A program made the position numbers and the translations under genes. This document shows, in pieces, positions 34,319 through 60,627 of a stretch of DNA of 64,000 nucleotides. The stretch spans positions 1,612,001 to 1,676,000 of the forward strand of contig JAVHNS010000010.1 in NCBI GenBank assembly GCA_036872755.1, given 5' to 3'. How positions within the stretch are numbered: the stretch's first letter is position 1; each line of letters starts with the position of its first letter. The DNA comes from Orbilia blumenaviensis (lineage: Eukaryota > Ascomycota > Orbiliomycetes > Orbiliales > Orbiliaceae). A model generated the notes under the pieces. That model searched no databases and was not told the DNA's origin. It saw only the letters and a program-made list of their open reading frames with translations.

Positions 34319-35827
34319 TGTGATGGGTTTTAAAGGAAGAAGTCGAAGAGTTTGGTGAGGTGGGGTTGTTGAGCGGGCTGTAACTAGCTCTCTCTGGAGG
34401 GAAAGTGGGGGATAGTGCTTCCTGCGTTTAGCTCGTCGAGAATCTATCCGACGAATAAGCGGGTCAATGTAAATGTCACCCACGCAGCCGAAGTCGAAGC
34501 TGGCAGATCCCGAGTCTCTCTATCTCTGGACGGCAGATAGAAAGATGGTTGTTGGTGTTGGTTAAGATAAGCTACTGAAGGTTGAAAGAAGAGGAAGAAA
34601 GGTCTGCCTTGTGTGTGTGTTGGAGTTGAGGTCGAAAAGAAAAACTGTTTGCTGTCAAACAGTTTTTTTTTTTTAGAACCAAAACCGAAGGAAAAAAAAA
34701 AAAAAAAAAACGTCTACCTCAGACAAATTGCTTGACTTCTCTCTTCGAGCTACAGCTTTTTTTTTCGTTTTAGTGCTAGCATTTCGTCATCTTTTCTTCT
34801 TTGGGCAAAGCTAATGCACGATTTCTTCAATTCATGCGGCAGCGATTGGCCGAGCTCGTCGATACCTCGACTACGACTGGATCCTGCTGAAACCCAGCCA
34901 GGATTCTTGGTCGCTCACTTGTACACATCCCTTACATTGCTGACCAGCAGCCCCGTTTGTTCTATATGTGCTATGATACAGAATGATTAATTTGCCCTGC
35001 TCCGAGGCCAAGGTCAGAAAAAAACAGCCAAGCCAAGATCCGAAGTCAGGATTTGCCTCTTTGGGAAGTAGCCAGAAATAACACATATACAACACCAAAA
35101 TGTCCGATTACAAGCCTGCACACAACACTCTCTTATGAGACTGGCAACACTCCTTTTAGTCTTTACATATTAGTTCTCAACATGTTGGCAAACTGGAGAA
35201 CATGTATGTTAAGGTCTCTTGGTATCTCTTTTTCCTCATACTGGTGTACCGTCCTATCATTACTTTTTATTCCAGATAGGGGTCCTTGGTTTTCACCCAA
35301 TGTCACCGCCCGAGCCACATAATGCTATCTTGTCAGCTACAAAAATCAACCTTGCAAACGCATTCAGATGGAAAACTCCGAATTCGAATACTAAGATCTT
35401 TTAAGTATTTTTCTACGGCGGTAGCATAGTGCCACAGCGCACGAGGGCCCGGAGCGCTGAGATATTTGCCAAACCGTGGTACCATTGACACTAGGATCAA
35501 CACCGCCACGATACGATCCCCATGAGCGCGTGCTATATATGTATCCACAACTCACAGATCTCTTAAGACTAGCTCTAACGTTGTCTTCTTTTGTCTTCAT
35601 GCACTGGATAACCAACCTGTAACCTATGTAAAGGGTATTAATGACTTCGTTCTTCATTTGATGTATAGTTTGTAATCGCACATACGTATCACTGCTCACA
35701 GTCATTATTCATCACCGTCATTATCACTGTCGTTAACAAAGACCCCCTAAAAGCATATCATATACGGCCTGGGACCGAGACTATATACAGCATATACGCA
35801 TATATACATACTCCAAAATTGAATAGG
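34319..35827. other. Intergenic region, 1.5 kb, divergent promoters
   Basis: Lies between ARB1 (minus) and the KP4-like gene (plus). It has CT/GA-rich sequence near ARB1, an 11-bp stem-loop followed by T residues at 34641-34672 and an A run at 34693-34710. The rest shows nothing recognisable. The open frame continues upstream of the ARB1 ATG, but family conservation begins at 34318. Confidence 0.45.
34641..34672 (+). repeat. Inverted repeat (11-bp stem, 4-nt loop) followed by a T tract
   Basis: Arms are at 34641-34651 and 34656-34666 around a CTGT loop, running into about 12 T. It looks like a bacterial intrinsic terminator or a Pol III stop. Here it lies about 320 bp upstream of the ARB1 start, and its role is unknown. 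Confidence 0.6.
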
Positions 35828-37066
35828 ATGCACCGGCACAACTTTTACCCCTTCTTCCTGCTCCCATTCGGGTCCGCGAACCCACTTCCAGAGCCAAAGC
35901 CCCCCTCTTCCCTGGCTCTACTCGACATAATCACCCCGAGTCCGACAACCACAATACAGCTGACCAGCCTAGCTACTTATCTAAACCTCACTACAATCAG
36001 CACGACCACAACCAGCACTTCGGTATTAACACTACTCGCAAATAGTACGACTGTGTTAATTTTTCCTGCTGAATCATTGGATTCCGAACTCAATCTTCCG
36101 GCTTTGGATATAGAGACAGTGCTGCCAGAGCCGCAGGTGTATACTTATATTGAAACAACCACCCTCGTTGACGAATATGGGGGAGCAGGAGGTTTGACAA
36201 ATCCGAGTACGACTTATATTCCCGAAGCACCTGGGATACTACCACCTCCAGCTCCACCACCAATACCCCAAGAACAACAGCAACAACCAGAAGCGCCAAA
36301 GGAGGACTTCTCGACCCCCTACCATGATGCCGCCGGCAACCCTCTAAACCCAAACACTCAAACTCCTCCCCACGTTCCCCACAAACTCAAGTCCTTCACT
36401 TCTAGACTTCTTTCCAGGATCCCCAACCCCATCGCCGCAATCTCCAAGATCACTTCCGCAATACCCCCGGCCTTTCCCGACGCAAAACCTGACACCTCGA
36501 CGTCAACAGACCCAAACTCCCCCTCTTTCCACTCATCCCCACCCCCCGCTAACGTCAACAATAAGCTCCTAAAAAAACCATTAGGTATAAATTGCCGTGG
36601 TAGACAATGCTGCGGCTCCACAAAATCAAAGAACGCACCTGGTTACCGCGGTTCTTTGTCATTAGCGCATTTAATCAATCAAATTCCTGATAATAGAACC
36701 TTCGCGCATCTGGAGAAAATAGCGTGTATTGGTACAGTACCTTTAGCGGACACTCACAATTTTATATGCGCTTGGCTCAACTACGGTAGAAGATGGGGCA
36801 CACCTTACTATCTTCCCGGAGGCAAAGGGGAGGCTCTCAGAACAGCGAAGAATATAAAACGCCTGGTTAATGAGTTATTGGACCATGGGTGTAAGAGGTG
36901 TGGTAGTGTGCCTATGGACTACCCGGAGAATAATGATGGTTCGCTTGGGTATTTGACCTTCAATGCGCGAAAGCATTCGTGCCCTGGAGAGAATTTTGGG
37001 ATTGATACTGTTTGTCCACCACAGTATCCAATTGAAGAAGCTAAAACTGGTGGGGATGTGGTCTAG
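35828..37066 (+). CDS. KP4-like (killer-toxin-fold) domain protein with long Pro/Ser-rich N-terminus
   Basis: Single-exon frame of 412 residues from the first ATG. A short hydrophobic start (FYPFFLLPFGSA) may be a weak signal peptide. Residues about 20-250 are low-complexity Pro/Ser/Thr-rich with a P/Q-rich section. Residues about 252-400 match the KP4-like family: an initial GINCRG, a following Cys-rich stretch, LINQIPDNRTF, a central Cys, NIKRLVNELLDHGCKRCGSVP and a late Cys near SCPG. KP4 was first described as a viral killer protein of a smut fungus that affects calcium channels. Many ascomycete genomes encode relatives whose roles include fungus-fungus antagonism or wall interactions. 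Most relatives are small secreted proteins, so the long N-terminal extension is unusual. I cannot say whether this one is active. An upstream exon supplying a stronger signal peptide is possible. Confidence 0.75.
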   Translation: MHRHNFYPFFLLPFGSANPLPEPKPPSSLALLDIITPSPTTTIQLTSLATYLNLTTISTTTTSTSVLTLLANSTTVLIFPAESLDSELNLPALDIETVLPEPQVYTYIETTTLVDEYGGAGGLTNPSTTYIPEAPGILPPPAPPPIPQEQQQQPEAPKEDFSTPYHDAAGNPLNPNTQTPPHVPHKLKSFTSRLLSRIPNPIAAISKITSAIPPAFPDAKPDTSTSTDPNSPSFHSSPPPANVNNKLLKKPLGINCRGRQCCGSTKSKNAPGYRGSLSLAHLINQIPDNRTFAHLEKIACIGTVPLADTHNFICAWLNYGRRWGTPYYLPGGKGEALRTAKNIKRLVNELLDHGCKRCGSVPMDYPENNDGSLGYLTFNARKHSCPGENFGIDTVCPPQYPIEEAKTGGDVV

Positions 37067-52010: not shown

Positions 52011-53268
52011 ATGAAGTTTTTTGGTATCATTAATTTGCTTTCGTTAGCTCTGACTTGTGGTTTGGCAAACTCTTTGAATATCATTATCAATAATGATGAC
52101 GGCTGGGCTACCGCCAATATCAGGTAACTCCAAGATCATATATATGTGGGTTTAAATTTTGCTGATATTTAAATTTATAGAGAGTTCTATAAAGCTCTAA
52201 GGGCTGACGGACACGATGCGTACATCGTCGCGCCGGTCGAGCAGCAGTCAGGGCAAGGAGGCAGGACTGTTTTTTCCGCTGAGGCTACTCTTTCCAGGCC
52301 AGGTCAATTTGATACCGTCCCTGCCGGTGCACCATCTGTAAGATTCTAGACTGAATTATCAGGCCTCCGTGAAATTTCCTAATAGCATGAGTTACCAGTT
52401 TGGCTCTGATCCCATGGACTCTCATATCTGGTACTACAATGGCACCCCAGCTGCCGTCACCTTCTTCGCACTCGACTTCCTCGTAAAACGCAAGGGTATC
52501 TTCAACGGCTCAGAGCCCGATCTTATTGTCACCGGTCCTAACGAGGGATCCAATGCCGGTCCCTTCGTTTTCACCCTCTCAGGGACCGTCGGTGCCGCAT
52601 ACGCAGCTGTTAGCAGAGGCATTCCCGCCATTGCCTTCTCTGCTACCGACATCCTGAATAGGAAGTATACTACCGTCAACAGCACTAATGACCCAGCAAC
52701 CATTCTCGGAAAACTGGCCACAAAAGTCGTCAACCAACTTGAAGCGAAGGGTAATGGTCACAACTCACGCCTTTTGCCATATGGATATGGCCTTAACGTC
52801 AACTTCCCGTATATATCTGCCAAGGCCACCGCGCTTTCTACAGTTAAATGCGTGAACCCTCCTTTTGTTAATACAAGGCTCACTGGTGGCGCTGCAACAA
52901 ACATCGCGGCATTCAACGAGGAAACGGGGATCTTTAATTGGGCCAGTAATTTCACTTCGCCGGGTGTTAACGCCTGCATTAACGGAGACTGTGACCTCCC
53001 CGGCGAAACAGATGTAATCAAGAAATGTAAATCTGCTATCTCTATATTTACTATTGATTACGATGCACCGACTTGTGGTGGTGCTGCAATGGTTAGAGAG
53101 TTGTTGGTAGGGTTAGTGGAGAATGACGGGAAGGAAAGTCAAGCTAGCAATGTGACTTCTACCGCTTTTCCACGGCCGACTGAGACTGGCGCTGGGGTGA
53201 GAATTGGTGTTAATGGTATGATGGCTGGGTTGATGGGTCTTGTTGCTATCGGTATGTCTATGCTGTAG
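52011..53268 (+). CDS. SurE-type (5'/3'-nucleotidase, acid phosphatase) secreted or GPI-anchored protein
   Basis: Three exons, 52011-52123, 52181-52337 and 52399-53268, give 379 residues. Residues 1-19 are a signal peptide. SurE hydrolases use a metal site whose Asp pair sits at the first strand, here IINNDDGWA with Asp29 and Asp30. Exon 2 carries APVEQQSGQGGRTVF, the second conserved block. Exon 3 starts FGSDPMDSHIWYYNGTPAA and contains TGPNEGSNAG and SGTVGAAYAAVSRGIPAIAFS, the remaining metal- and substrate-binding motifs. The second intron is 61 nt: the earlier AG at 52362 would leave only 25 nt, so I used the AG at 52398, which also restores the conserved GAPSFGSD. The hydrophobic C-terminus (GLMGLVAIGMSML) after a Ser/Thr-rich stretch suggests a GPI-attachment signal. 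It is probably extracellular. Substrate specificity is unknown. Confidence 0.85.
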
Positions 53269-53725: not shown

Positions 53726-56700
53726 CTAATTGACCATCCAGCTGGGCCAGCACTGTGAATACCAGTCTGACATAGTATAGCATGAGTAACCACTGGTACA
53801 GACCGTTCCGCCAGTATATCCGATACCGCCACACTGGGCCCACGCCCCAACGACGGCAGTATTAGCAGGCGCTGCTGTTGACGTTGTACTTGTGCTCGTA
53901 CTGAGAGGCTTCGACGTTGCTGCTGGAAGACACTGGGAGTAGTAGTCGTTGCTGCGAACACATTCCCATCCATACGGGCAGTTGGTACCGCCTGTGTACC
54001 CGATACCACCGCACTGAGCATAGCCAGCGACCGTAATAGTATTTACGGAGGATGTAGAAGTCTTGGCGCTACTAGTGCTCGTGCTCGTACTAGTAATCTT
54101 CATCGAGGTTGAAGAACCGGAACTTGAAGTTGTTCTTACCGAAGAAGAAGAAGAAGAGCTAGAGCTAGGGGAACTGGTGGTGGAACTTGTGCTAGAACTG
54201 GAAGTGGATGTTCTTGTCGAGGATGTTGCAGATGTTGAAGAAACGGTAGTGGAGCTTGAGGAGCTCGATGTAGTAACCTTGCTTGAACTCGAGGATGTCG
54301 ATGGGGAGGAGGAGGAGGAGGAAGAGGAAGAGGAAGAGGAAGAGGAAGAGGAAGAGGAAGAGGAAGAGGAAGAGGAAGAGGAAGACACCATTTTAGTAGC
54401 AGTGGTTGGAACAGAAGTCGAAGCAGGCCTACACTGGGAGTACCAGTCATCTGAGCGGACACACTCCCAGCCATACTCACAACGCGTACCACCGGTATAA
54501 CCAATCCCACCACATTGAGCATACGCCCCAACAGTCGCTGTATTAACGGCGGATGTGCTAGAAGCTGCCGAGGTGGAGGTTGATAATGGTTTCGATGTCG
54601 AGGCGGGTTTGCATTGGGAGTAATAATCGTCTGAACGTACGCATTCCCAGCCATACTCACAACGAGTACCTCCGCTGTAACCAATTCCACCGCACTGTGC
54701 GTATGAACCTACGGTCGCGGTATTGACAATGGTAGTGCTGGTACTTGTAGGAGTGGACGTAGTCGTCGCCTTTGATGTTGACGCCGGCTTGCACTGTGAG
54801 TAGTAATCATCCTGTCTTATACACTCCCAACCATATTCACAGCGCGTACCGCCAAAATAATTGATACCACCACATTGGGCATATGCACCCACGGTGGCAG
54901 TATTAATTGATGTAGTACTTGAGGGCTTTGATGTCGAAGTTGATAACGGTTGGGACGTCGAGGCTGGCCTACACTGTGAATAGTAATCATCTTGCCGTAC
55001 GCACTCCCAACCATATGGACAGGATGTACCCCCACTATAGTTTATCCCTCCACACTGCTCATAATTTCCGACCATGGCTGTGTTAACGCTCTTTGTGGTC
55101 AATGGCGTGGATGTTGCTGCTGGCTTGCATTGCGAATACCAGTCGTCTTGACGGACACACTCCCAACCATATTCGCAAACCGTACCTCCCGTATAGTTAA
55201 TGCCACCGCACTGTGAATAGCCTGATACAACGTTAAGATTAACTAAAGTCTTAGCAGAAGTTGGTGAACTAGTTGGAGATGTTAGGGAGGTCGATCGTGT
55301 CGTAGACATGGCAACAGCAGTCGAAAACTGAGTTGATGAGCTAGCTATGGAAGCGGAGCGTGTAGAAGCGGTGGAAGCTGCCTGAGCAGCTACAGAGGAT
55401 GTTACAGACGTAGAAGTCGCCGCAGGTCTGCATTGGGAATACCAGTCGTCCTGTCGAACGCACTCCCATCCAGACTGACAAACCGTGCCTCCTACATAGC
55501 CGATACCTCCGCACTGCGAATAACCAGCAACAAGGTTAAGGTTGATTGACAGGCTGGTCAAACCTGCTGAACTGGAACTTGACCGCGTAGAGGTGGCAGA
55601 AGTGGTGGCGGGGGTGGTGAGAGCCGGGGTAGAGGATGGAGTGGATGTCGCAGCCGGTTTGCACTGCGAATAGTAATCATCCTGTTTAACACACTCCCAA
55701 CCATAAGGACATGAAGTACCTCCCGTATAATTGATACCTCCACATTGTGCATATCCCGCAACCGTAGCAGTATTAATTGATACAGTTGTAGACCGAGGTG
55801 TGGAAGTAGCCGCAGGCTTACATTGAGAGTAGTAATCGTCTTGCCGTACACACTCCCAACCATACTCGCACTTTGTTCCGCCGCTGTAGTTGATGCCCCC
55901 ACATTGCGCGTAGGCACCTACTGTTGCGGAGTTGATCGCAATGGAACTCGATAGTGGAATTGACGTTGCTGCTGGTTTGCACTGAGAATAGTAATCATCC
56001 TGACGAACACATTCCCATCCGTACTCACAACGAGTACCTCCACTGTAGTTAATCCCACCGCATTGAGCGTAAGCTCCAACTGTAGCTGTGTTTACCGAAG
56101 CCGACAAACTTGAAGTTGTTGCTGATGTGGTTGCCCGGGCCGAAGTTGTAGATGCTGTCGATGTCGATGAGGATAACAACGAGACAAGATTATCTTTCAA
56201 GGCTACCGGTATTGTGGATGCCACCGAACTTGTAGAACGAGAAGATGTCGTTGCCGTAGCTGTTGTGGTGGAACGGGATGATCCCGACGTCGCAGATGCC
56301 GTGGAAGGCACAGAAGTTGCCGCCGGTCTACATTGAGAATACCAATCATCCTGACGAACGCACTCCCACCCATACTCGCAACGAGTACCGCCAGCGTATC
56401 CTGTTCCACCACATTGTGCGTAAGCGCCAACCGTAGCTGTGTTTACTGAAGCGGTAGAAGTAGATGTCGAGCGAGGTGTCGAAGTTGCAGCAGGCTTGCA
56501 TTGAGAATAATAGTCATCTGAACGCACGCACTCCCACCCATACTCGCACTGGGTTCCACCAGTGTACCCGATCCCACCGCACTGCGAATACCCTGAAACG
56601 ATGGCAGTATTAACAGAAAGCGAAGAAAGGGAAATGCTTGCGCTTGATATTGAAGTTGCGGAGGATGTCTTGGTTGTGGCACTCGAAACCGAGACCGAGA

Positions 56701-59700
56701 CCGAGGAAGACGATTTGACGCTTGTGCTTGATGTCGAAGCTGGGACTGATGTAGATGCTGGTTTACATTGAGAATAATAATCATCTTGACGAACGCATTC
56801 CCAACCGTACTCGCAACGGGTGCCTCCACTATAGTTGATACCTCCACACTGAGCGTAGGCACCAACAGTGGCAGTATTCACAGAAACTGAAGAACTTGAT
56901 GTTGAAAGTGGAACTGATGTCGCCGCTGGCTTGCATTGGGAGTAATAATCATCCTGACGAACACATTCCCATCCGTATGGGCAGCGAGTTCCTCCAGCAT
57001 ACCCAATACCACCACATTGGCTATATCCAGCTACGATAGCGGTATTCGCGGAAAGCGAGGAGAGCCCCGTGTTAGAATTAGAGGGTGTAGAAGACGAAGT
57101 CTTACCAGCAGCAGTCGAAGTGGTGAGTGGAATAGAGGTAGTAGCCGGTTTACATTGAGAGTAATAATCGTCTTGACGGACGCATCCCCAGCCGTACTCG
57201 CAACGAGTTCCGCCACTATAGTTGACGCCTCCACATTGGGCATAGGCACCGACAGTAGCCGTGTTGATAGATACCGAAGAACTTGATAAGGTAGATGATA
57301 GTGGGGCCGAAGTAGCGGCAGGGTTACACTGGGAGTAGTAATCGTTTTGGCGGACGCACTCCCAACCATATGGACAACTAGTACCTCCGACATATCCAAT
57401 ACCACCACATTGAGCATATCCAGCAACAATCGCAACGTTAACGGAAAGCGATGATAGTCCAGTACTTGAACCCGTTTTCGAGGAAGTTGTACTAGTTGAA
57501 CTCGACGTTGTGGGTGAAGAAACTTTAACAGTTGAACTCGATGCGCTTGTGGTTGTGGGGGAGCTAGAGGCTTTAGCAGTTGAACTGGAACTACTCGAAG
57601 TAAGTGGCACCGATGTTGCTGCAGGTTTACACTGCGAGTAATAATCATCTTGGCGAACACACTCCCATCCATATTCACAGCGAGTACCTCCACTGTAATT
57701 GATGCCTCCACATTGAGCATACGCGCCCACAGTCGCCGTATTAACAGAGGTTGTGGAGAGGGGAACGGATGTTGAGGCAGGTTTGCATTGTGAATAGTAG
57801 TCATCCTGGCGAATACATTCCCAGCCGTATTCACAGCGAGTTCCACCAGTGTAGTCTTTACCTCCACATTGGGCGTATGCAGCAACCGTGGCAGTATTAA
57901 CTGAGGCTGTAGATAGTGGGACCGAGGTCGCAGCAGGTTTACACTGAGAATAGTAGTCGTCCTGGCGGACGCATTCCCAGCCATAAGCACATTGCGTTCC
58001 CCCAGTGTACCCAATACCACCACATTGTGCGTATCCACCGACAACTGAGGTGTTGATGGTTACCGTGCTCGAAGAGCTACTAGAAGTGGTGGTAGAAGCT
58101 TTACTTGTTGTAGAAGTTGTGGCGGTTGAAGACTTCGAGGTAGTGCTCACAATGCCAGTCACTGCAGTAGGAATGACGAGAGATGTGCCCGCTGAGGTTG
58201 TTGAGCTACTAGAGCTGCCTGAGCTGGTGGTTCCCTTCGAAGTTGATATGGAGGAAGATGCTGAAGTAGTGGTCGAAGCGTTTGGATCTGTCCCAGGTAT
58301 GCACTGGGAATAATAATCGTTCGATTTAGAGCACCAGTATCCAGTAACACAAGTAGTAGCGCCAGTCCATAACAACCCACCGCATTGAGCATAGGCGGCA
58401 GCAGCGGGTGTACTGGCCGCTGAAGAGGTTGATGTTGATGTTGATGAAGTGGGCGTAATACTGAAAGTAGATGTTTTGGTAGAGGTTAGTGAAGTGGATG
58501 CAACGCTGGAGGTAGAAGCCTTCGTAGTGGTCGATGTATTAGGATCCGTCCCAGGAATACATTGTGAATAATAGTCACTCGATTTTGAACACCAGTAGCC
58601 AGCAACACATGTAGTAGCACCAGTCCACAGCAATCCTCCACATTGGGCGTAAGCAGCTGCTGCTGGCGTACTTGCTGTTGACGAAGTTGAATATGTTGCC
58701 GAAGTACTAGAAGTCGACGCCTTTGAAGTAGTACTTGAAGAATTAGGATCTGTTCCCGGAATGCACTGAGAGTAATAGTCCCCGGACTTTGAGCACCAAT
58801 ACCCAGTGACACAGGTAGTCGGCCCACTATACCCAATTCCACCACATTGCGCATATGCTGCGACAGGAGTAGAGGTAGAAGATGCAGACGAAGACGAAAT
58901 TGTTGTAGAGTCCGTAGATGAAATGCTCGAAGTCAAAGTTTTCCCAGCTAAGGTTGATGTCCCACTAGACCCAGATCCGCTGGAAGATTGACTAGTTGAC
59001 GTAGAAGACGTGACCACGGCTGCAGTATTAGGGTCTAGTACGCACTGCGAATAAAATTCGTTGGACTTCGAGCATATATAGCCCGAAACGCATTTTGTGG
59101 GCCCAACATATGTGAGACCGCCACACTGCGCGTATGCAGAAGCCAGTGCTGTTGAAGAGGTGGCAGTTGTAGATGCTGTGACTGCGGAGCTTGCAGATAG
59201 TGTTGTAGAAAAGGATGTGGTAGTGGAGAACGTCGATACAGAAGTAGTCGGGAAGGTAGAAACAGAGCTGCTTCCAGTATCAGGTATACACTGCGAGTAG
59301 AATGTATTCGACTTGGAGCAAATATATCCCGCCACACATTCTGTCGCCCCTAAATACGCTAAAACCTGTGTTAATAGGATCATATGGACAGAATCTTTCC
59401 TTGGTGAAACTTACCTATACCACCACACTGCCCGTACGCTGGAACTAGCGCCTTCGTCGATGTTGCTGCTGTTGATGAGCTCGTTGTAGACGTGCTTGAT
59501 ATTGATGCAGTAGACCCCAAAGAGTTACCAGTTTCAAAGCTGGAAGCAGAAGTTGTAGTTCTCGCCTTTGAAGTGGTAGACGTTCTCGAGACCGCACCAG
59601 ATATAGCTGCGTCGCCGCACCAAATTAGTGTTTTCTCAAGAGAAAGTTATTAAAGAGAACAGTGTAAGTCCACTCACGATCAGGCCCTGGAAATATATAG

Positions 59701-60627
59701 GAGGATGACCCAAGCAAATTGCTTATTGTGACGAGGATTCCAGGATCAATCGCAGCATATCCTCCAGGGAATCGTACGGTATTTGACGGTCTGGTGGTTC
59801 CTCCATTCGTTACTTTGATATTAGCACATATCGGATAGAACTATTTTTTACTGTTAGCACCACCTCTGTCAGATATATAGTTTGATAATATTTATATGCA
59901 CCTGTGCCCCGTTGAGAAGGCTCGCCCCGTTGAGATTTACGAATTCATGTCTCATGAGATAGCTTCCGGAAGCGATATTAGACGGGATGTTGATGGTGTA
60001 TGCGCTTCCCGCGGCGATAGAGTCTGATGCCCAAGACCCGTCATCGTGGAGGCCGTCTTCATCAATCTTGAAAAAGTCGAGAAGATTGGGATTTTGATTT
60101 GTACAATCGTCATTACTACAGTAAGCGAGATATGTCATGCTGGGACCTTTGTAGCCTGAAGGCCAACCTGGCCAATTGAAACTGATAGACCCGCCTGCTT
60201 TGACCGTGGCCACTACGGGCCAAGAACTTCCGTCTGGTTGATTGCAGGCGATTGAGTTGCTCATAATATTACTGACAGGGCCTCTGTCTATTGATTGGAA
60301 AATTAATAAGTTATCAATAACAAAATAGAATACACGTTTAAGTATTTTATTCGCCGATAGTCTGAACGGTAATTGGTTGGTCTTACCTAACATCTGCCAG
60401 ACGCGGCTCGTTAACAAACTATCGGTTCCCACGATCCTGAAGCAGACCATAGGTATCAGTAGTATTCTACACAAAGGGAGATAAAGACGTAGAGTATTTG
60501 CAGAATGAGGCACCTACGAATCGAGGATTCCAGCAGCCGAAGACGTCGCAATGATATTATCGAGGAGGCCTGCTTGAGCAAGGCTCGCCCAGCTCAGAGC
60601 GAGCCCTACTTCTAGATAGGGCTTCAT
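53726..60627 (-). CDS. Giant secreted AA9-like domain fused to 25 CBM1 cellulose-binding modules
   Basis: Six exons: 60627-60518, 60436-60387, 60287-59902, 59840-59678, 59606-59415 and 59358-53726. All phases agree, giving about 2177 residues. Residues 1-19 are a signal peptide. About 20-230 is an AA9 (formerly GH61) domain: GPVSN, IACN (Cys68), [37 protein letters not shown] and AQ-FYPICA (Cys187, likely paired with Cys68). AA9 lytic polysaccharide monooxygenases oxidise cellulose with copper held by the N-terminal His, a second His in HxGP and a Tyr. Here the mature N-terminus would be Gly20, no His occurs before residue 134, and HxGP is Y99-KGP. Tyr184, His167 and Gln182 remain. From about residue 293 to the end run 25 CBM1 modules, each with four Cys and the cellulose-binding aromatics, on Ser/Thr linkers. 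The exon-1 model needs transcript support. The CBM1 part is unambiguous. Confidence 0.88.
53735..59455 (-). repeat. Array of 25 CBM1 modules within the AA9-like gene
   Basis: Approximate module centres from N- to C-terminus (kb): 59.4 (split by an intron), 59.09, 58.81, 58.61, 58.35, 57.99, 57.82, 57.68, 57.38, 57.20, 56.98, 56.81, 56.55, 56.37, 56.03, 55.86, 55.71, 55.47, 55.17, 55.02, 54.84, 54.65, 54.47, 53.98 and 53.79. Modules 1-5 are of one type (YxCSKS..YYSQC). Modules 6-24 are a second type with GGTxC, GWECVRxDDYYSQC and a preceding NTATV-like segment. Module 25 is distinct ([16 protein letters not shown]). Each keeps QCGG, four Cys and the paired aromatics. Spacing is irregular because linker lengths vary. 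Confidence 0.95.
54305..54385 (-). repeat. In-frame simple repeat encoding 27 consecutive serines
   Basis: On the plus strand this is (GGA)n followed by a GAGGAA hexamer repeat. In the gene's frame it encodes an unbroken run of 27 Ser in the linker between CBM1 modules 23 and 24. Slippage would change linker length without breaking the frame for multiples of three. Confidence 0.9.

Follow-up and report, generated by a model that had tools for sequence, protein, structure and literature searches.

What does a fungus make when it joins an AA9 domain, the fold of fungal lytic polysaccharide monooxygenases (LPMOs), to as many as 25 cellulose-binding modules: a cellulose-cutting enzyme or something else? 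The question is raised by a gene of Orbilia blumenaviensis in a stretch of 64,000 nucleotides (GenBank assembly GCA_036872755.1, contig JAVHNS010000010.1, positions 1,612,001 to 1,676,000), hereafter called the window. The gene encodes a putative secreted protein with an N-terminal AA9 domain (the head) followed by an array of 25 carbohydrate-binding modules of family 1 (CBM1). The head has lost the histidine ligands of the AA9 copper site and the binding faces of all 25 modules are intact. With about even confidence, we read the product of this single gene as a secreted LPMO derivative without catalytic activity, which would tether or scaffold cellulose through its many binding modules.

Reconstruction of the exons gave a spliced coding sequence on the minus strand (60627 to 53726), consisting of six exons, which corresponds to 2177 amino acids and has a frame open across its whole length. 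The five introns, of 81, 99, 61, 71 and 56 nt, are all GT-AG. The predicted protein comprises a signal peptide, an AA9 domain and, joined by Ser/Thr linkers, 25 complete CBM1 modules; the signal peptide, its cleavage after AQA and the C-terminal tail were judged by eye. In a Pfam scan the first 353 residues matched AA9 (177.2 bits) and CBM_1, and the open reading frame (ORF) of exon 6 matched CBM_1 with 714.6 bits in 24 stretches, not 25, because intron 5 splits the first module. This split also means that head and array are one gene, and together with four deposited gene models of relatives, all of which join AA9 and array, it rules out two fused genes. An earlier sequence-only reading of this DNA was exact in its coordinates, protein length, exon number and count of 25 CBM1, and its claims of an intact frame and splicing, of a single gene and of the two domain families were confirmed as well. 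The scan further gave 34 bits to PF20109, a bacterial regulator domain, without any stretch passing alone. Of the 104 Cys in the protein, four belong to the head and the others to the CBM1 modules, which have four apiece, and the mature chain is approximately 219 kDa before glycosylation. Its composition is mucin-like (36 % Ser+Thr), and it is probably heavily O-glycosylated.

The AlphaFold model had a mean predicted local distance difference test score (pLDDT) of 45.3, with residues 1-48 and most linkers below 50. The model included the signal peptide, and gives no shape for the segment expected to hold His1. Foldseek, in agreement with VIA-align, placed AA9/GH61 chains at ranks 1-39, so that the head belongs to the AA9 fold family (PF03443) both by a significant profile match and by fold.

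The array search (1042-3315 aa, the 7960 candidates with most shared words being scored) returned 12 proteins, of which four are orthologs. Three are from Orbilia oligospora (P0002, P0003 and P0005, with 26, 26 and 11 CBM1 by pattern; locus tags EYR41_007635, TWF594_010698 and TWF191_000111) and one is from Arthrobotrys megalospora (P0004, 24 CBM1; TWF281_002992). AA9 proteins with ten or more CBM1 therefore exist in two other species. A search with the head returned 99 proteins, and the window protein was aligned with 102 proteins using MAFFT.

For the copper site, the numbering of TaAA9A is used; His164 and Gln173 are taken here to be its second-sphere residues, and Tyr212 to be a contact of the flat face with cellulose. 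The copper-site ligands of TaAA9A are His1, His86 and Tyr175 (PMC5094447). In the phmmer alignment with TaAA9A (2yet), WPSGYKGP of the window protein stands opposite WPDSHHGP, and VNLNGA opposite IALHSA, so that His86 is replaced by Tyr and His164 by Asn; counted on the same alignment, Ser is opposite Tyr212. At the N-terminus, A-GLLD aligns with AHGIVQ of Morchella, which means that His1 is deleted and that the mature N-terminus would be Gly. The whole protein has only two His, His134 and His167.

The same losses are found in the orthologs. Position 1 is Gly in the window protein and in P0002-P0005, and His in all 11 comparison rows (of 13) that have an N-terminus. Position 86 is Tyr in the window protein, P0002, P0003, P0005 and P0016, a 253-aa protein of Dactylella cylindrospora, and Asn in P0004; 11 of the 13 comparison rows have His, and the two others, both from Xylaria, are gapped with their His one column off. 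Position 164 is Asn in the window protein, Asp in P0002-P0005 and Ala in P0016, and His in 12 of the 13 rows, P0023 having Gln. His86 and His164 are thus absent in six rows and His1 in the five of them with an N-terminus; the P0016 model lacks its true N-terminus and shows two of the three losses (Tyr86, Ala164). In the MAFFT alignment many basidiomycete rows have His86 one column off (PHP-Y and alike), and P0092, P0102, P0108, P0110 and P0111 are unaligned there; no misaligned row was counted as a loss.

The view of the protein as an AA9 enzyme with many CBM1s, in which the loss of the histidine brace had been missed, was therefore not upheld: an active AA9 enzyme is rejected on account of the missing His ligands. 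A variant of it, an LPMO still active through an unusual metal site and held on cellulose by its 25 CBM1s, would fit the retained fold and axial Tyr, and P0002 and P0005 carry the name lytic cellulose monooxygenase in UniRef (other homologous records are hypothetical proteins). We consider it very improbable, as His is absent at positions 1 and 86 and the sole His residues lie at 134 and 167; with these residues the UniRef name is itself unsupported. AA9-like proteins in which an N-terminal Arg leaves the brace incomplete have been noted in Phanerochaete chrysosporium and Heterobasidion irregulare and called unusual (PMC5094447), so a brace-less AA9 has precedent. The window protein differs from these in having Gly at the mature N-terminus, if cleaved after AQA, and in carrying the 25-CBM1 array, and it has lost His86 and His164 as well.

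The rows with the His-less head group together. In an IQ-TREE phylogeny of 36 chosen rows (six His-less, 23 other proteins and seven paralogs from the own genome; midpoint root), the six His-less rows formed one side of a branch with 100/100 support, which all 200 bootstrap trees recovered; no particular active AA9 emerged as their sister. The next nearest proteins by score, from Morchella and Sphaerosporella (49-51 % identity), keep all three His, and among the database relatives recovered this head was not found outside Orbiliomycetes. A query with the head of P0005 (631-2009 aa, 7990 candidates scored) gave, beyond P0005 itself, only two Rhodotorula CBM1 proteins, and no intermediates with 2-10 CBM1 behind this head were seen among the scored candidates. 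None of the 114 records found via this protein had more than four CBM1 by pattern, besides P0002-P0005 and the window ORF (P0001).

Gene models deposited for the locus seem unreliable. P0002 and P0003 have long N-terminal extensions ahead of the signal peptide, and the tail of P0003 past the last CBM1 is probably frame-shifted. Precomputed Pfam lists contain PF13886 for P0002-P0004 and PF00484 for P0002 and P0003, neither of which came up when the window protein was scanned with Pfam. By eye, residues ~190-253 of P0016 resemble the window array in the wrong frame, with an out-of-frame Ser/Thr linker and CBM1 start, and in D. cylindrospora this head is probably followed by one CBM1 or more.

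The putative cellulose-binding faces of the array, as judged by residues, are complete. The four Cys, the aromatic triad and the Gln, of which triad and Gln presumably make up the binding face as in the CBM1 of Trichoderma reesei Cel7A, are present in 25 of 25 window modules, in agreement with the high valency claimed at first. Intact faces were also counted in 26/26 modules of P0002, 25/26 of P0003, 24/24 of P0004 and 11/11 of P0005. The gaps between CBM1 cores range from 18 to 133 residues and sum to 1030. The GAGGAA microsatellite in the longest linker is likely to vary in length between strains. Feature coordinates are collected in the table.

Table. Features of the AA9-CBM1 gene (window positions; TaAA9A numbering where a residue of that protein is named)
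Feature	Position	Strand	Description
Exon 1	60518..60627	-	Holds the start codon; residues 1-19 (...SLAQA) form the signal peptide and Gly20 follows; peptide and its cleavage (AQA|G) assigned by eye
Exon 2	60387..60436	-	Orthologs P0002-P0005 align gap-free over its junctions
Exon 3	59902..60287	-	AA9 domain core; terminates ...NGAQ
Exon 4	59678..59840	-	C-terminal part of AA9; begins FYPICAN (axial Tyr184 = Tyr175 of TaAA9A)
Exon 5	59415..59606	-	First Ser/Thr linker and opening part of CBM1 number 1
Exon 6	53726..59358	-	Remainder of CBM1 number 1, CBM1 2-25, linkers, stop codon
AA9 head, no histidine brace	59679..60570	-	Residues 20-236, introns included
Ala19-Gly20 junction	60568..60573	-	One-residue deletion where active AA9 relatives have His1
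Tyr99 codon	60151..60153	-	Replaces copper ligand His86; place counted from exons
Asn173 codon	59929..59931	-	Replaces second-sphere His164; place counted from exons
CBM1 number 1	59285..59442	-	Residues 292-325, split by intron 5 (59414-59359)
CBM1 numbers 2-5 and linkers	58298..59140	-	Type I, GY[I/W]CSKS
CBM1 numbers 6-24 and linkers	53927..58039	-	Type II, GW[E/G]C at third Cys in all
CBM1 number 25	53747..53848	-	Distinct (W5 and W31); protein stops six residues after
Hexanucleotide tract GAGGAA, 13.3 copies	54306..54385	-	Poly-Ser within longest linker

The type II modules 6-24 are, over 171 pairs, on average 81 % identical in protein and 71 % in DNA, and modules 8, 12 and 15 have identical protein sequences with DNA only 80-83 % identical. 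The ratio of non-synonymous to synonymous substitution (dN/dS, NG86) between modules was not computable, as the mean proportion of synonymous differences was 0.90, i.e. saturated, and codons were therefore shuffled within amino acids instead. Codon agreement at identical residues of modules 6-24 was 41.9 % of 4534 comparisons, compared with a shuffled mean of 41.0 %, and 36 of 500 shuffles reached the observed value. The synonymous signal is thus nearly erased while the protein stays conserved, which shows that the array is old and that each module is under constraint. Reciprocal best modules of the window protein and A. megalospora formed 15 pairs, 14 of them collinear (shuffled mean 5.6, maximum 9). 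With P0002, 13 of 14 were collinear, and with P0003 11 of 11; the short P0005 gave 5 of 6, a level also reached by shuffles. The other modules were left unpaired, so modules have been gained, lost or exchanged as well.

A recent repeat expansion or an assembly artefact is ruled out by the codon saturation and by the collinear arrays in separately deposited relatives. Repeats are prone to misassembly, and the ortholog gene models are unequal in length (1148 to 2422 aa), but exact matches between module cores reach 32 nt at most (linkers excluded), and the intron that separates head from array lies within CBM1 number 1. An artefact of assembly or annotation, in the form of two fused genes or an expanded repeat, is already largely refuted and its probability is close to negligible.

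No membrane or glycosylphosphatidylinositol (GPI)-like hydrophobic tail was seen by eye at the C-terminus, which consists of CBM1 25 followed by PSWMVN, and an anchoring of hyphae by the protein, as suggested earlier, is therefore without sequence support. Since the copper site is missing and no anchor tail was seen, the protein is taken to be a secreted multivalent cellulose tether or scaffold. The N-terminal domain, an AA9 fold minus its copper ligands, would be a pseudo-LPMO retained as a folded unit, which may have acquired a new ligand or may serve to cap the N-terminus stably. With 25 CBM1s on flexible linkers, one molecule could grip many sites of a single microfibril or of adjacent ones, so that the protein would, through avidity, tether or cross-link cellulose or coat it as a scaffold. 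Its role would be to keep a mycelial or enzyme-rich matrix on cellulose, or to hold fibrils, with no cutting.

Several observations weigh against this reading. The head is not wholly stripped of old active-site residues: the axial Tyr175 is kept (as Tyr184) in all six His-less rows, and Gln173 (as Gln182) in the window protein and P0016, P0002-P0005 having Lys. One module of P0003 has Ser in its aromatic triad, and in the AlphaFold model the CBM1 blocks reach a pLDDT of only about 37-68. P0005 holds only 11 modules, yet its tail (~1064-1148) is non-CBM1 and looks frame-shifted. Linkers, too, are fairly alike where aligned (63-67 %), in part owing to their richness in Ser/Thr, and the contrast in conservation between head and linkers is only a rough sign of constraint. 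Extra CBM1s need not raise affinity proportionally, and linker glycans could stiffen or shield.

The genome itself (42.46 Mb in 23 contigs) is rich in both families, with 48 AA9 matches, which we grouped into 27 loci, and at least 106 CBM1 matches, a lower bound, of which 25 lie in this array. Among the remaining 81 CBM1 matches listed, none has another within 2 kb (read by eye), and the concentration of 25 in one array is far beyond chance. This richness would also fit a swelling factor that, in the manner of a non-hydrolytic 'C1' factor, opens up cellulose to the cellulases of the same fungus, its CBM1s and glycosylated linkers being wedged into the microfibrils and loosening or gelatinising the material. 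Arthrobotrys sp. CX1 turns filter paper translucent and swollen, with the CBM1 and glycosylated linker of a GH5 being key (PMC10991334), and the CBM1 faces of the window protein are intact. Avidity is, on the other hand, expected to immobilise rather than to pry apart, the Pfam scan of the window protein contained no expansin-type domain, and the excerpt of PMC10991334 is silent on this protein; swelling is an unlikely function, though one that retains some weight.

A somewhat lower probability is given to a role in adhesion or in the matrix of hyphae or traps, in which the CBM1s, as low-affinity glycan grips, would hold on to surfaces unlike plant cellulose (nematode, chitin or other fungi). 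The four array-bearing relatives belong to the nematode-trapper lineage, CBM_1 is among the expanded families in a nematode-infection expression table (PMC3828140, Table 2), and the mucin-like composition would suit such a role. The CBM1 faces, however, are of the cellulose type, the D. cylindrospora fragment shows the same head losses, and the tail offers no visible wall anchor.

Position 86 was examined in 25 of the 27 AA9 loci of the genome: 22 have His, the window locus has Tyr, and L022 and L030 were unreadable because of introns. In L022 (C3:133507) the His164 region is like that of Choiromyces P0109 (LALHQAN, PQFYPEC) and the His86 region is missing or intron-interrupted; this locus may be another damaged AA9. 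The paralogs L031/L038 and L032/L037 (C15:1077315 and C9:1532806) have HEFFGAC in place of the usual AQFYPxC, with Gln173 changed to Glu and the axial Tyr to Phe. Within the window, a SurE-like ORF (52342-53265, plus strand, 82.9 bits) is convergent with the gene and ends ~460 bp from the stop codon of the array. A 465-aa ORF at 35669-37063 (plus strand) has a KP4 domain (81.1 bits), whose fold, met here in the chromosome of a fungus, is like that of killer toxins.

Among known systems, the closest is the AA9 LPMO with a C-terminal CBM1 (PF03443 and PF00734), which shares the order AA9-linker-CBM1, the fold, the four head Cys, the axial Tyr and the CBM1 type; it differs in having the three His that are deleted or replaced in the window protein, and none or one CBM1. 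Non-catalytic proteins with multiple CBM1, of which CBEL is presumably an example, also occur in oomycetes. These are standalone or combined with PAN/Apple domains and have no AA9 head (PMC3532174); the Pfam scan of the window protein gave no PAN/Apple domain. PpCel45A of Pichia pastoris similarly has several different CBM1s on Ser/Thr linkers, five in all, but ends in an active GH45 endoglucanase and has no AA9; to its authors' knowledge, the only earlier characterised eukaryotic glycoside hydrolase with several CBM1s carried two (PMC3247070). The four orthologs are known as database gene models, and literature searches, none of them by locus tag, turned up no study of them. A. oligospora has been credited with 84 to 86 CBM1 genes, with no mention of a giant array in the excerpt (PMC3924618), and excerpts of a review of CBMs in LPMOs (PMC10154629) and of a survey of LPMO C-termini (PMC8615602) contained nothing alike. 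The initial claim that the layout was undescribed was not contradicted by searches of open-access articles, none of them by locus tag, but homologous records were already in databases. The architecture is real and conserved, with no description found, and is built from two known domain families.

The finding flags a likely database error, the labelling of His-less AA9s as lytic cellulose monooxygenases. As a natural high-valency cellulose binder, the protein would serve tests of how avidity scales with CBM1 number and would offer a ready-made cellulose adhesive or coating. The conservation of an AA9 domain despite the loss of both copper-ligand His bears on roles of the LPMO fold beyond catalysis. 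Possibly, though we hold this only tentatively, an LPMO has here been turned into a structural protein: copper would have been lost a single time among Orbiliomycetes, giving way to an approximately 25-valent extracellular cellulose scaffold, a 'fungal velcro', whose head recruits a partner or docks on polysaccharide and which has been kept over long evolutionary time. If true, a free-living fungus would have its own equivalent of a cellulosome-like scaffold, made of CBM1 repeats. The link to nematode-trappers raises the question of how the saprotrophic phase of these fungi grips plant litter.

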